A program made the position numbers and the translations under genes. The notes below the pieces were generated by a model. It searched no databases. It was not told the DNA's origin and saw only the letters and a program-made list of their open reading frames with translations. 64,000 bases of DNA from Bacteroidota bacterium (GTDB lineage: Bacteria; Bacteroidota; Bacteroidia; Chitinophagales; Chitinophagaceae): the NCBI GenBank assembly GCA_029573235.1, contig JAKQGX010000037.1, forward strand, positions 1-64,000. The letters are read 5' to 3'. This document shows positions 13,612-58,281 of the stretch, piece by piece; the first letter of the stretch is position 1, and every line of letters begins with the position of its first letter.

Positions 13612-13717
13612 AAAAAAAAAAGCAGAGTCTAGAAAAACTCTGCAAAAAATCCAACCTCTAAATAGTTTCCATAGTGATAGGATTTATCTTTTGTTAGGAG
13701 TAAATAGGTGAACTATC
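13612..13717 (-). ncRNA. Candidate small RNA of about 105 nt
   Basis: On the minus strand a perfect -7 box TATCTTTG (13724-13731), with TTTTG 15 nt upstream of it, is followed about 95 nt later by an intrinsic terminator (stem 13637-13643/13622-13628 followed by nine T). The stretch between has no reading frame longer than a few codons (an ATG is followed by a stop after three more codons). This is the layout of an independent small RNA. The region 13585-13930 holds no convincing gene on either strand. Confidence 0.5.
13622..13643 (-). terminator. Intrinsic terminator of the candidate small RNA
   Basis: GCAGAGT (13622-13628) pairs with ACTCTGC (13637-13643), loop 8 nt. On the minus strand it is followed by nine T residues, so it is oriented to end minus-strand transcripts; no minus-strand protein gene lies upstream for several kb, which is why a small RNA is proposed. 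Confidence 0.7.
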
Positions 13718-13723
13718 TTGACA

Positions 13724-13731
13724 CAAAGATA
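13724..13731 (-). promoter_or_regulatory. -7 box of the candidate small RNA, within an inverted repeat
   Basis: Minus strand TATCTTTG. The box overlaps CTATCTT (13713-13719) / AAGATAG (13726-13732), an inverted repeat that spans the predicted transcription start. Confidence 0.5.
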
Positions 13732-13775
13732 GGGTGCAGTTTGGGTCAAAATGATACGTATAAACACGTATTTTA

Positions 13776-13795
13776 TTATCCGTGCTAGTACGGAT
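13776..13795. repeat. Near-palindrome shared with 55067-55083
   Basis: ATCCGT (13778-13783) and ACGGAT (13790-13795) flank GCTAGT. The 17 bases 13776-13792 match 55067-55083 at 16 positions; both lie in intergenic DNA. Function unknown. Confidence 0.4.
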
Positions 13796-19590: not shown

Positions 19591-19639
19591 AATACCCTTA
19601 ATTGGGTATTGCATTGCGATGGGCATTGCAGCATATTTG
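19591..19639 (+). promoter_or_regulatory. Palindromic operator plus promoter of the TPR histidine kinase gene
   Basis: AATACCC (19591-19597), 6 nt, GGGTATT (19604-19610), directly followed by G so that TTG (19609-19611) can be the -33 element; 20 nt later comes CATATTTG (19632-19639), one base off TAnnTTTG. The same arrangement with the same spacings occurs at 55091-55139. The start codon is 27 bp after the -7 box. A transcription factor dimer bound to the palindrome would touch RNA polymerase. Confidence 0.6.
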
Positions 19640-19666: not shown

Positions 19667-21484
19667 ATGAACCGCCCCTATAGGATAGCTTTGTTATGGT
19701 CCGCCCTATTATCATTAATAGGCATGTCCTTCTCCTTTGCGAAAGGCTATATAAACATGGATAGTCTTTTGACCTTGGCACGTAGCACCCATCAATACGA
19801 TACAGCACGCTTACGGCTTTACCGGCAATATAGCGAGTGTAATGGCCGCTCCTATCCATTAGCACGAATTACGGCTATGAACGAAGCCATACAATTGGCG
19901 ACAAAAATTGGCGACAAAAGACAAGTAGTCTTTTTCTATTTACAAAAAGGAAGTGCCTTTCAAGTCATTGGGAAACGAGACTCCGCTTACCAATGCTATC
20001 AGGAAGCCTTGGCAATAGCAGCGCAACATAAGTATCAACGACTACAAGGTGATGCTTACAATGAGATGGCTCGATTCTTCAGAGCTAAGGAACCGAAACG
20101 TGCCATTGCTTTATACGACAAAGCAATGAATGTATTCACGGCACTAAATGATACAGAAGGTATTGCTACTATTTGGAATGAATCGGGTGTGGCATACGAA
20201 TACCTACCGAATTATTCGGAAGCACTACGGCGATACCGACAATCATTAGCCCTTCAAGAACAGCGCAAAGACAGCACCGGTATTGGCTATTCTTTAGAAT
20301 TTATAGGTGGTGTACTCACCAAAATGAAGCAATATGAAACTGCGGAAACCTATCTAAAGCGCGCCCTCACTTTTCGGGAACTATTAAAAGATAGCTTTGC
20401 TTTATCCTATAACTATTTAGCATTGGGAGAACTTTATAGCCAAATGGGTAAAGGCGCCGCTTCACAATCTGCGCTTAATATCAGCATAGCCCTTAATAAA
20501 AAAATAGACAATGACTATGGATTATTGCAAGATTACGAATCAATAAGCCGTATGTACCAACGCCTTCACCAACCCGACTCGGCATTGCTGTATCAAAGCA
20601 AACACTACGAGATAAAAGACAAAATGTTTGCCTTACAAAAAGAAGAAATCATTGAAGAGCTGCATACCCGATACGAAACAAAAGAAAAAGAACTGCTGAT
20701 ATCACAACAAGAAAAAAGCATTGCCAACCGCAACAAAAGTATTACCCTCATTATCTCTTTCTTTTTATTGCTGGGTGCCACTGCAATAGGACTCTTTAAG
20801 CGGCACCAATACCGCCAAAGAATGCACTTGGAGCAGCTAAAGGCACAACAACAAGAAGAAGCCTCTAAAGCCATTGTAGAAATAGAAGAACGAGAACGCC
20901 AGCGAATAGCCTATGAGCTGCATGATGGAGTAGGGCAAATGGTGAGTGCCGCCCATATGAACCTCTTGCACCTACAGCGGGAAGATGTAACCCAACCACA
21001 GTTTCAAAACCAACTCAACAAGGCAATAGGCATTGTAGGTGATGCCTACCAAGAGTTGCGACACATAGCCCATAACATGGCTCCCTATGCCTTGGAACGC
21101 AATGATTTTTCTACTGCGTTATTTTCTTTAATTAATCGGATAGATACCGAAGTGCTGGCTATCAATTTATACACCGAAGGACTGGATACGCCCTTTGATA
21201 AAAGCACTGCTTCGGTTTTATATCGCATTATTCAAGAAGCCGTCAACAATGTCATCAAACATGCCCAAGCCACCCGGTTTGATATTTCGTTGATAAAAGA
21301 CAGCGAAGGACTCCAGCTAACTTTGGAAGATAATGGTAAAGGGTTTGACAGCAATAGCCCAAAATACACCGAAGGTGCCGGGCTGGGAAACATTCGAAAT
21401 AGAGTGCAGTTTTTAAAAGGAGAAATAGAAATAGATTCCGCCCCAGGCAGAGGAACTCTTATAGCAGTTTTTATTCCGGTGTAA
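19667..21484 (+). CDS. TPR-containing sensor histidine kinase (HisKA_3 type)
   Basis: 605 residues: signal peptide or anchor (1-26), a periplasmic sensor of about six tetratricopeptide repeats (about 70-320), a coiled stretch, one membrane span (about 357-376), then a cytoplasmic kinase. The HisKA_3 H-box is RIAYELHDGVGQ with phospho-acceptor His419; the ATPase has the N-box QEAVNNVIKHA, G1 DNGKGFD and G2 GLGNIRNRV. Kinases of this kind phosphorylate NarL/LuxR-type regulators. No regulator gene is adjacent, so it is an orphan here. Its promoter carries the AATACCC palindrome. Confidence 0.92.
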   Translation: MNRPYRIALLWSALLSLIGMSFSFAKGYINMDSLLTLARSTHQYDTARLRLYRQYSECNGRSYPLARITAMNEAIQLATKIGDKRQVVFFYLQKGSAFQVIGKRDSAYQCYQEALAIAAQHKYQRLQGDAYNEMARFFRAKEPKRAIALYDKAMNVFTALNDTEGIATIWNESGVAYEYLPNYSEALRRYRQSLALQEQRKDSTGIGYSLEFIGGVLTKMKQYETAETYLKRALTFRELLKDSFALSYNYLALGELYSQMGKGAASQSALNISIALNKKIDNDYGLLQDYESISRMYQRLHQPDSALLYQSKHYEIKDKMFALQKEEIIEELHTRYETKEKELLISQQEKSIANRNKSITLIISFFLLLGATAIGLFKRHQYRQRMHLEQLKAQQQEEASKAIVEIEERERQRIAYELHDGVGQMVSAAHMNLLHLQREDVTQPQFQNQLNKAIGIVGDAYQELRHIAHNMAPYALERNDFSTALFSLINRIDTEVLAINLYTEGLDTPFDKSTASVLYRIIQEAVNNVIKHAQATRFDISLIKDSEGLQLTLEDNGKGFDSNSPKYTEGAGLGNIRNRVQFLKGEIEIDSAPGRGTLIAVFIPV

Positions 21485-55066: not shown

Positions 55067-55083
55067 TTATCCGTGCTGGTACG
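55067..55083. repeat. Intergenic 17-mer shared with 13776-13792
   Basis: TTATCCGTGCTGGTACG, 16 of 17 bases as in the other copy; here it lies just upstream of the AATACCC palindrome. The rest of 54865-55158 shows only this, the palindrome and the promoter. Confidence 0.4.
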
Positions 55084-55090
55084 TAGAAAA

Positions 55091-55139
55091 AATACCCATT
55101 ATCGGGTATTGTATTTCAAGGAATGCTAGGGTAATTTTA
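55091..55139 (+). promoter_or_regulatory. Palindromic operator plus promoter of the secreted protein gene
   Basis: AATACCC (55091-55097), 6 nt, GGGTATT (55104-55110), then G giving the -33 TTG (55109-55111); 20 nt later TAATTTTA (55132-55139), one base off TAnnTTTG. Palindrome, overlap with TTG and 20-nt spacing are identical to 19591-19639. The ATG is 20 bp after the -7 box. Confidence 0.6.
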
Positions 55140-55158: not shown

Positions 55159-56154
55159 ATGAAAAAGACATTACTCCTTTTGTTGGTTTTCCTAATGGGA
55201 ACAACACAAATTTTCGCAGCAAAGTTACGTGTCAACAACCGCAGTGGTATTAATGCTAACTACACATCGTTAAGTTCAGCCATAGCAGCAGCCTCTGCCG
55301 GCGACACTATTTATGTAGAGCCTTCTTCGTCAAGTTATGGTGCTGTAAGCCTCTCCAAAAAATTGACCATAATTGGTAATGGTTATTTTGAAACACCAAG
55401 CCCAGCATTTGTTGGCAATACCACCTTGCAGGCAGATACGAATGAATCTAAAATAAGTACCTTCTCTTTTTTAGCAGGCAGTGCCGGCTCTACCGTTATG
55501 GGAGTAGTATTTAGCAGCTATGTATATCTTTATGATTCTTCCATCACACTCAAAAGAAATAGTTTTTGGTCATATTACTTGTACTTCTACACGGGAGTAT
55601 TGAATAATATTGATGTTCGTCAAAATTTCTTTTATAATGCAGCGGTCACTTATTATTCTCCATCCGTTAGCACAAACATTAATTTCCAAAACAACATTTT
55701 CTACAATTCAACTATTGGTTTGCCTAACGACTTGTCCGGGTTCGCACAGAACAATGTTTTTGTCGGCTCCTCATCCGGTATGAATTGTTACAATTTTCAA
55801 GTGAATAATAATATCATGATTACGGGTTCGTTTACACCAAATAACTGTGTTTACTTTAATAATATTGGCACCAGCACACAATTTGGCAACGCGAATAACA
55901 ACCAGCAAAATGTGGGTACTGCTACACTGTTTGCTCATTACACTACCGGTACGGAGACTCGTTATACATTAAGCCCAACCGGCCCGGGAATTGGTGCTGG
56001 TTTCAATGGAGTTGATGTAGGTATCTTTGGCGGTCCAGACCCTTATAAGTTAAGTGGTATTCCTCCGGTTCCAACTATATACTCACTTTCGGCTCCTGCC
56101 ACTACCGTTACCAATACATTACCTGTAACCATCAGCACTCGTAGCAACGACTAA
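55159..56154 (+). CDS. Secreted beta-helix-like protein
   Basis: 331 residues. Signal peptide 1-20 (IFAAK). From about 22 on it has the pattern of right-handed parallel beta-helix proteins: SLSSAIAAASAGDTIYVEP, KKLTIIGNGYFE, then Asn-rich turns (QNNIFYNSTIG, NNNIMITGSF). Pectate-lyase-like proteins bind or cut polysaccharides, but no catalytic site is evident. The C-terminus (PDPYKLSGIPPVPTIYSL to TRSND) is a motif I associate with similar secreted proteins of Chitinophagaceae. Preceded by the AATACCC operator; followed 36 bp later by the repeat protein. Confidence 0.8.
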   Translation: MKKTLLLLLVFLMGTTQIFAAKLRVNNRSGINANYTSLSSAIAAASAGDTIYVEPSSSSYGAVSLSKKLTIIGNGYFETPSPAFVGNTTLQADTNESKISTFSFLAGSAGSTVMGVVFSSYVYLYDSSITLKRNSFWSYYLYFYTGVLNNIDVRQNFFYNAAVTYYSPSVSTNINFQNNIFYNSTIGLPNDLSGFAQNNVFVGSSSGMNCYNFQVNNNIMITGSFTPNNCVYFNNIGTSTQFGNANNNQQNVGTATLFAHYTTGTETRYTLSPTGPGIGAGFNGVDVGIFGGPDPYKLSGIPPVPTIYSLSAPATTVTNTLPVTISTRSND

Positions 56155-56190: not shown

Positions 56191-58281
56191 ATGAAACAGA
56201 TTGGTTTTTATATTGCTGCTCTATGGATGGTGGTCAGTAGTTTGTGTGATGTTTCTCATGCACAAACTAACATCGTAAGTGGCGAGTATTTTTATGACTC
56301 CGACCCGGGCTATGGTAATGGCAATGCCATTACTATCAATACTCCGGCAAGTAATATTAGTTCCTTATTGGTGAATGCGAACACTTCCAATATATCTAAC
56401 GGTATGCATACTTTGTTTATTCGTACCAAAGATGCCAATGGCAAATGGAGTATGACGAACAGCCTTGTGTTTGCTAAATACCAACCGGTGCAAGGCAATC
56501 CGAATGCGCTAACCAACATCAACAAGATGGAATATTTCTACGATACCGACCCAGGCTATGGGAATGGCACGAATATTCCGGTTACGGCATCAACGAATAT
56601 CAATAGCATGTTGGTGAATGTAAACGTAGCTTCTTTGTCGGGTGGTTTTCACACCTTGTACATCCGCTCCAGAGATTCAATGGGCAAATGGAGTATGACG
56701 AACAGCCTTGTGTTTGCTAAATACCAACCGGTGCAAGGCAATCCGAATTCGATTAGCAACATCAACAAGATGGAATATTTCTACGATACCGATCCGGGTT
56801 ATGGAAATGGTACGAACATTCCGGTTACGGCATCAACGAATATCAATGGCATGTTGGTGAATGTAAACGTTGCCTCATTGTCGGGCGGTTTTCACACCTT
56901 GTACATCCGCTCCCGAGATTCATTGGGTAAATGGAGTATGACGAACAGCCTTGTGTTTGCAAAATACCAACCGGTGCAAGGCAATCCGAATTCGATTAGC
57001 AACATCAACAAGATGGAATATTTCTACGATACCGACCCAGGCTACGGAAATGGCACGAATATTCCGGTTACGGCATCAACGAATATTAATGGCATGTTGG
57101 TGAATGTAAACGTAGCTTCTTTGACGGGAGGACTACACACCTTGTACATCCGCTCCCGAGATTCAATGGGCAAATGGAGTATGACTAATTCATTGACTTT
57201 TTCAAGAATCCAATTACCACTCGGGAATCCCAATAGCATTACCAACATCAACAAGATGGAATACTATTATGATTCCGACCCGGGCTTTGGAAATGGTATC
57301 AATATTCCAGTTACGCCGGCAACCAACTTGAACAATATGGTTGTAAACGTCAACGTGGCTACACTCGCCAATGGGGTACACACCTTATATATTCGCTCCC
57401 GTGATTCTGTTGGCAAATGGAGTCAGACTAATAGCCTCACTTTTGCAAAAGTACAGCCCCTATTCCCTAATCCAGATTCTATTAGCAATATCACGCAAGT
57501 GGAATATTTTGTAGATACCGACCCTGGCTTTGGCAACGCTACTAGTGTACCGCTCATACCGCCGTATTCTTCCAATTTGATGAACTTGAGTTTTAACGTA
57601 AGCATGACATCACTCAATAACGGAGCCCATGTATTATATGTTCGCTCAAAAGATGCAAGCGGCAAATGGAGCATAACTAATATTCATCCGTTTAATGGAG
57701 GTACCTTACCACCGTTATCAATAAAGCTCATAACGTTTGACGCCAGCTTACAACAAGACAATACTGTATTGTTGAAGTGGATGGTAGAAAATGAAAAAGA
57801 CGTGAGCCATTATAGGATAGAAAGAAGTATGGATGCAGGAAATTGGGTATTCGTGGGAAATCAAAAACAGAGTGCTAATAATAATAGTCGCAATGAATAT
57901 CAGATGATAGATGATAACCCCGGTAAAGGGATTGTGTATTATCGTTTGACAGCCATAGAAACATCCGGCAATCAAACCATGGCGCCCATACGCTTTGTGA
58001 AAATTGGAACCAATGAATCAGATGTAGCCACCGTATATCCCAATCCAAATGATGGTAAGCTAATCAATATTTATGCAACAATGTTTAAGCAAGCAAATGT
58101 TACAATTGATATTATCACCACAGATGGAAAGCTATACTGGAGCCAAACAGTAAATACTAAAGGTAACACTAATCTTACCCTTTCAAACCTAAACCTACCT
58201 GCGGCTACATACTATATCAATATGAGAAGCCAAAATGAAACACAAAGCATAAAGTTGCAAGTAATACCCAAAGAGAGATAG
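56191..58281 (+). CDS. T9SS-exported repeat protein (type A sorting domain)
   Basis: 696 residues. Signal peptide 1-24 (SHAQ). Six tandem units of about 81 residues fill 27-510, each with EYFYDTDPGYGNG, a middle strand (MLVNVNVASLSGG) and LYIRSRDSMGKWSMTNSL. Then a fibronectin-like domain (about 515-605) and a type A T9SS tail (about 613-696: YPNPNDGKLINIYA, GKLYWSQTVNTKG, YYINMRSQNETQSIKL), which directs export across the outer membrane and anchoring. Likely cell-surface adhesin or structural protein; cotranscription with 55159-56154 is likely. Confidence 0.9.
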   Translation: MKQIGFYIAALWMVVSSLCDVSHAQTNIVSGEYFYDSDPGYGNGNAITINTPASNISSLLVNANTSNISNGMHTLFIRTKDANGKWSMTNSLVFAKYQPVQGNPNALTNINKMEYFYDTDPGYGNGTNIPVTASTNINSMLVNVNVASLSGGFHTLYIRSRDSMGKWSMTNSLVFAKYQPVQGNPNSISNINKMEYFYDTDPGYGNGTNIPVTASTNINGMLVNVNVASLSGGFHTLYIRSRDSLGKWSMTNSLVFAKYQPVQGNPNSISNINKMEYFYDTDPGYGNGTNIPVTASTNINGMLVNVNVASLTGGLHTLYIRSRDSMGKWSMTNSLTFSRIQLPLGNPNSITNINKMEYYYDSDPGFGNGINIPVTPATNLNNMVVNVNVATLANGVHTLYIRSRDSVGKWSQTNSLTFAKVQPLFPNPDSISNITQVEYFVDTDPGFGNATSVPLIPPYSSNLMNLSFNVSMTSLNNGAHVLYVRSKDASGKWSITNIHPFNGGTLPPLSIKLITFDASLQQDNTVLLKWMVENEKDVSHYRIERSMDAGNWVFVGNQKQSANNNSRNEYQMIDDNPGKGIVYYRLTAIETSGNQTMAPIRFVKIGTNESDVATVYPNPNDGKLINIYATMFKQANVTIDIITTDGKLYWSQTVNTKGNTNLTLSNLNLPAATYYINMRSQNETQSIKLQVIPKER
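56269..57729 (+). repeat. Tandem 243-bp repeats within the T9SS protein gene
   Basis: The landmark AACATC or its variant recurs at 56269, 56515, 56758, 57001, 57244 and 57487: first interval 246 bp, the rest exactly 243 bp (81 codons). Units starting at 56515, 56758 and 57001 are nearly identical in DNA, including silent positions, so they arose by recent duplication or gene conversion; the outer units have diverged. Confidence 0.93.

Follow-up and report, generated by a model that had tools for sequence, protein, structure and literature searches.

Response regulators of the NarL type recognize heptamers with the consensus TACYYMT. In E. coli, the engineered site TACCCCTAAAGGGGTA is bound by NarL (PMC4549865), and NarL activates transcription from position -44.5 at ogt1052 (PMC9314961), as given in the available parts of these two reports. 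For F. psychrophilum promoters, the available text of PMC9723704 places the -7 box at -12 to -5, and the stem "palindrom" is absent from the main text of that paper. No description of the site reported here was found among the open-access papers searched, which were covered by titles and the starts of abstracts, with subscription papers mostly outside the scope.

The DNA analyzed here (the window) is the whole 64,000-nucleotide stretch of a Chitinophagaceae contig. An earlier, sequence-only reading of the window had claimed that one palindrome occurs at two promoters, and AATACCC-N6-GGGTATTG was indeed exact at both 19591 (AATACCCTTAATTGGGTATTG) and 55091 (AATACCCATTATCGGGTATTG). In both copies the right arm overlaps the TTG, and a -7-like box follows 20 nt past the TTG with one deviation from TAnnTTTG, at the positions that reading had given. 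The features of the two loci are as follows.

19591-19610, + strand: palindrome copy 1 (core TACC-N8-GGTA at 19593-19608), inferred centre -43.5
19609-19611, + strand: TTG of the -33-like element, overlapped by the right arm of copy 1, read from the sequence
19632-19639, + strand: -7-like box of copy 1, CATATTTG, deviating once from TAnnTTTG
19667-21484, + strand: TPR-HisKA_3-HATPase_c histidine kinase, 605 aa, no adjoining regulator
55070-55085, + strand: palindrome A, TCCGTGCTGGTACGTA, 23 bp ahead of the TACC of copy 2 (start to start)
55091-55110, + strand: palindrome copy 2 (B), core at 55093-55108
55132-55139, + strand: -7-like box of copy 2, TAATTTTA, one base off TAnnTTTG
55159-56154, + strand: 331-aa protein with a signal-peptide-like start and no Pfam match
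56191-58281, + strand: next gene, 696 aa, T9SS C-terminal sorting domain (Por_Secre_tail), presumed to belong to the same operon

Within the window, the palindrome alone with up to three mismatches was not enriched (6 matches against a shuffle mean of 3.25, with 10 of 100 shuffles reaching 6); the composite pattern with up to two mismatches gave 6 matches against a shuffle mean of 0.31, a number reached by none of 100 shuffles. Across the whole assembly (2,147,074 bases, 81% complete), the exact palindrome was found 3 times and the reversed pattern not at all; with one mismatch allowed, the counts were 8 and 1. The exact palindrome occurred at 20 places in 59 genomes, compared to 3 control places. 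TACC-N8-GGTATTG-N24-TTTR gave 25 matches in 35 relatives (3 for the reversed control), and TACC-N8-GGTAT-N22-TAnnTTTG gave 161 matches in 294 genomes of the family, 92 of which had a match, compared to 14 for the reversed control. The shared operator-promoter module of the first reading is supported by the sequence evidence. As a class, the module is beyond chance: it is a real feature found widely in the family, with an activator-like character. The motif AATACCC-N6-GGGTATTG as first written was too narrow, and the conserved core reads as TACC-N8-GGTA, a 7-2-7 inverted repeat.

The kinase at 19667 has an arginase-family gene and a glycosyltransferase gene as its neighbours, and the idea of an orphan HisKA_3 kinase holds, with no regulator next to it. 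At a cutoff of E 1e-90, kinase homologues were found in 29 of 314 genomes of the family, the window's included. Four of the 29 have the module immediately upstream, namely those of this genome, of G070 and G159 (another genus) and of G215, where the -7 box is weaker; in G155 the palindrome is present but lacks a clear -7 box, and no module was found directly upstream of the other 24. Many of these 24 closely trail another gene and could share its promoter. In G334 the palindrome close to the kinase falls within upstream coding sequence and was left out of the module count. Conservation before kinase orthologues, proposed as a check on the module, was therefore found in G070, G159 and the weaker G215 and was lacking for most homologues. 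A second related kinase was noted at G000:C30:64809-65930 (L033), related to the window's kinase at 36% over about 374 residues, on a contig without a listed GerE regulator.

Homologues of the gene at 55159 were read at 17 loci, the query itself left out. The same check succeeded at five of them (G006, G005, G001, G002 and G017), where TACC-N8-GGTAT and TTTR stand at an unchanged distance, and failed at the other 12, where the module was absent. Might the two window copies be chance palindromes at two ordinary promoters? The lack of enrichment of the palindrome alone in the window and the absence of the site before most kinase homologues would fit, but the assembly and family counts exceed their reversed controls, the spacing is kept in five promoters of copy-2 homologues, and the site precedes the kinase in both G070 and G159, so we regard coincidence as very improbable. 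Copy 1 alone could still be inactive.

The distance between palindrome and promoter was determined by a variable-gap search (gap 11 to 33) in 107 genomes. Among the 143 matches listed, 77 had a spacing of 21-22, 8 of 23 and 13 of 32, and 45 were spread over the other 19 spacings. The TTG at -33 was kept in only 27 of the 77 matches at spacing 21-22 and was present in 52 of 143 distinct palindromes, as would be expected of class II promoters, in which the -35/-33 element is poor or missing. In relatives, TAnnTTTR lay 23-25 nt past the TTG position, on one side, at 9 of 15 exact-palindrome loci. The sigma-A box TAnnTTTG was found throughout, but it was required by the search patterns, and each window copy is one base off. 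As the -7 box of F. psychrophilum spans -12 to -5 (PMC9723704, available text), the palindrome centre is predicted at about -43.5, within the range of about -40 to -45 that a class II activator would occupy at a fixed spacing, which 77 of the 143 matches share. This spacing test is the strongest evidence on the mechanism: the distance is held while the TTG decays, as predicted of a class II activator, and an activator is favored. The expectation of an activator site in the first reading is in line with this result.

Repressor sites are often palindromes that lie on promoters. An operator of this kind, bound for example by a TetR-like protein and overlapping the -33 element so as to shut these promoters, would explain why the right arm overlaps the TTG in both window copies, and the fixed place of the site would then merely reflect promoter overlap. 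This is an unlikely explanation, given that the spacing is fixed within 1-2 bp, that the site persists where the TTG is gone (27 of 77 with TTG), and that no repressor family appears among the 25 commonest of the 86 Pfam families of the targets.

The family of the presumed activator was approached through the arms of 143 distinct class II palindromes. Inner pair 1 was complementary in 63 palindromes, compared to 42.8 expected (p = 0.0004), inner pair 2 in 71 compared to 39.1 expected (0 of 5000 shuffles), and inner pair 3 in 50 compared to 38.1 expected (p = 0.016), whereas the central pair was complementary less often than expected (31 compared to 47.9). Covariation is seen in pairs 1-3 but is lacking at the centre, so the palindrome consists of two inverted heptamers around a 2-bp gap, which is the NarL arrangement. 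The TACC of the heptamer is present by choice of the pattern, and the inner positions vary among the 143 palindromes. The covariation of the arms also points to several related regulators whose inner contacts differ. The regulator of the module is most likely of the NarL/LuxR type, and the 7-2-7 geometry lends support to the same proposal in the first reading. NarL-type regulator genes adjoin module promoters in G282, G315, G001 and others, and genes behind the module encode, among others, a NarL-type regulator (L166), two small GerE proteins (L093 and L053) and TPR-HisKA_3 kinases.

Activators of the CRP/FNR type bind sites of about 16 bp and act from around -41.5. The length of the palindrome and its class II position would thus fit a CRP/FNR-type activator as well; the covariation, however, marks heptamers around a 2-bp centre, the regulators among the targets are GerE or receiver-domain proteins, and NarL-type genes adjoin module promoters in G282, G315, G001 and others, in a comparison that covered the NarL-type genes. 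We consider a CRP/FNR-type activator quite unlikely.

The autoregulation of the kinase suggested by the first reading has indirect support. In its favor, the module precedes the kinases of G070 and G159, kinase-regulator operons stand behind it in G127 and, although the -7 box there is weaker, in G215, and the regulator L166 is itself a target; against it, only 4 of 29 kinase homologues carry the module. Conserved autoregulation of the L166/L079 class of regulators was dropped as a candidate, as the module was present at none of 21 related loci (the Bacteroidota-looking loci read out of 80 fetched).

Target genes were read at 158 sites, from loci chosen by hand among the matches listed, for spread over genera and not at random. 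A downstream frame was present at 120 sites, and 88 of the 120 frames looked exported. Among class II sites, 104 of 114 frames started within 150 nt, and 82 of these 104 near targets looked exported by a home-made hydrophobicity rule, compared to 87 of 260 control genes (p = 3e-21). Only 8 of 148 class II sites lay inside a long frame. The gene picker misses starts; it reported no ORF at G159, where the kinase follows. A Pfam scan took in 107 of the 120 frames, with 13 doubtful or repeated ones left out, and the 25 commonest families included the T9SS sorting domain (13), SprB (3), FGE-sulfatase (3), TIR_2 (3), HisKA_3 (2) and GerE (2); in G021 the site is followed by a further small GerE-like protein of 76 aa, as judged by its sequence. 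The module looks like a shared switch of a surface-remodelling programme. In genus g2 (L129, L130 and L134), similar-looking proteins without a signal-peptide-like start were also seen behind the module, that of L129 with a TIR_2 domain. In other families of the order (L063, L064, L065, L070 and L074), a TTTAGAATTAATCTAAAT-like palindrome, which we take to resemble a Fur box, lies near the start after some module promoters.

The window holds a third promoter of this type, on the minus strand, ahead of a putative small RNA.

13779-13794, - strand: palindrome A of the third promoter, TCCGTACTAGCACGGA, starting 24 bp ahead of B
13755-13770, - strand: looser B palindrome, TACGTGTTTATACGTA (TAC-N10-GTA)
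13724-13731, - strand: -7 box of the third promoter, TATCTTTG
13612-13719, - strand: putative small RNA of about 107 nt, start inferred, with an intrinsic terminator (hairpin 13622-13643 and T-run)

This promoter (13794-13724) and palindrome A at 55070 lay outside the finding of the earlier reading. Palindrome A has the consensus TCCGTRC-YR-SYACGKA, which gave 39 strand matches in 36 genomes, a perfect palindrome counting twice, compared to 6 for the reversed control. At 21 of 23 loci read, a B-type palindrome (TAC-N10-GTA) follows it at a start-to-start distance of 23-24 bp, and palindrome A was found in four genera (g1, g64, g72 and g116) and as single matches in G125 and G009. In the window, A precedes copy 2 and does not precede copy 1.

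The putative small RNA of the window had no Rfam match at the gathering score, and the scan of the window gave only four tRNAs. Terminator-like hairpins came after 21 of the 44 class II sites that lack a near frame, compared to 10 of 72 that have one. Three candidate RNA families were recognized, whose link to the module is partly built in because the loci were mostly fetched for the module. Family i comprises GGATATTGGATTTT and a terminator at seven loci (L017, L088, L254, L291, L292, L296 and L310), and its hairpin showed no two-sided changes. Family ii comprises AGCTACTAATCAGAGCCTTAACC, the same in all 10 sequences aligned, and behind it a terminator hairpin with some compensatory changes, both sides having changed in 4 of its 17 pairs in an alignment of 10 of the 11 sequences. 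It occurs at 11 loci (L112, L113, L114, L294, L323 and L325-L330), with a variant in L324; the module stands at spacing 21-22 in four, at 32 in six others and farther off in L329, its presence there being a matter of selection since these loci were fetched for it. Family iii occurs at six loci, with the module just upstream in three, one of them the window's own diverged copy, and absent in three. Rfam 15 at the gathering score gave no matches in 20 loci and 10 loci, which covered families i and ii in full and four of the six loci of family iii. A reading of the spacing-32 peak as a class I position was dropped: of the 10 loci read at this spacing, 8 have RNA family ii or its variant, so the peak mostly reflects one RNA.

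Six GerE regulators were found in this genome; none has the module upstream, and each appears, read by eye, to adjoin its own kinase. A likely partner regulator of the window's kinase was not found in this 81%-complete genome, where mfd is present without it. Among the 29 kinase homologues, 14 have a NarL-type regulator farther downstream in their locus, and a close relative lies about 2-3 kb away in G111, G187, G239, G283 and G155. A second clade of 11 regulators (G001, G002, G004, G006, G070, G159, G163, G222, G269, G290 and G307) adjoins these kinase-adjacent regulators in a tree with long branches elsewhere, and its members are their genomes' best match to a kinase-adjacent regulator, with the exception of G307 (second). 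The window-type kinase (E 1e-90) is present in 9 of the 11 genomes, none with a regulator in the kinase locus, and Mfd is in the locus of 9 of the 11 regulators. An A-B promoter starts 30-110 nt past the regulator in nine members, in strict TACC-N8-GGTA form only in G001 and in the looser TAC-N10-GTA form in the other eight; in G004 it lies about 0.8 kb downstream, and none was seen in the shorter locus of G006. Palindrome A was found in all 11 clade genomes, compared to 2 of 15 others in both searches (this genome and G125), a count that ignores kinship. The clade regulators are only candidate partners of the window-type kinase, because in G269 another TPR-HisKA_3 kinase directly precedes the proposed partner. 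In G282 and G315, a TPR-HisKA_3 kinase/regulator pair is directly followed by the module and an FGE-sulfatase-like gene (Pfam run on the G282 gene). The Mfd-linked regulator of G001 aligns almost end to end with VraR (E 5e-35) and NarL (E 6.7e-32).

On these data, we think it probable that the palindrome is bound by dimeric response regulators of the NarL/LuxR type, which would activate sigma-A promoters from the class II position at about -43.5 and so compensate for a weak or absent -33 element, with TPR-HisKA_3 kinases as partners and exported proteins and small RNAs as targets. Kinases like that at 19667 would sense a signal and phosphorylate their NarL-type partners, and the phosphorylated partners would turn on the genes of exported and T9SS-secreted proteins and of putative small RNAs, as well as, in some genomes, that of the kinase itself. 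The common outer TACC/GGTA and the variable inner bases fit what a family of related regulators would bind. More tentatively, it is possible that in several genera a split pair, a TPR-HisKA_3 kinase and an mfd-adjacent NarL-type regulator, runs a surface-remodelling regulon that includes undescribed small RNAs through the A-B double operator, with outer TACC/GGTA contacts in common and divergent inner specificity. If true, a sequence rule would predict members of two-component regulons in a family rich in kinases and regulators of unknown target; such kinases would be linked to exported and T9SS-secreted proteins, and RNA families would be named. The DNA specificity of related NarL-type regulators could then be compared, because the inner bases differ between genera and the outer bases stay.

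Compared to described systems, the module resembles the E. coli NarL site in its inverted heptamers, 2-bp gap and outer TACC/GGTA (TACCCCTAAAGGGGTA; PMC4549865, available part) and in its position, with a predicted centre of -43.5 here and activation from -44.5 at ogt1052 (PMC9314961, available part). VraR and NarL are the closest solved structures to the Mfd-linked regulator of G001. With promoters SM4-SM6 of F. psychrophilum it shares the TAnnTTTG sigma-A -7 box and surface/T9SS genes under dedicated promoters; the available text of that paper credits alternative sigma factors (PMC9723704), whereas the palindrome described here lies on what appear to be ordinary sigma-A promoters. The module would differ from E. 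coli NarL in its Bacteroidota sigma-A promoter, its variable inner bases and its targets, which are mostly exported proteins together with putative small RNAs.
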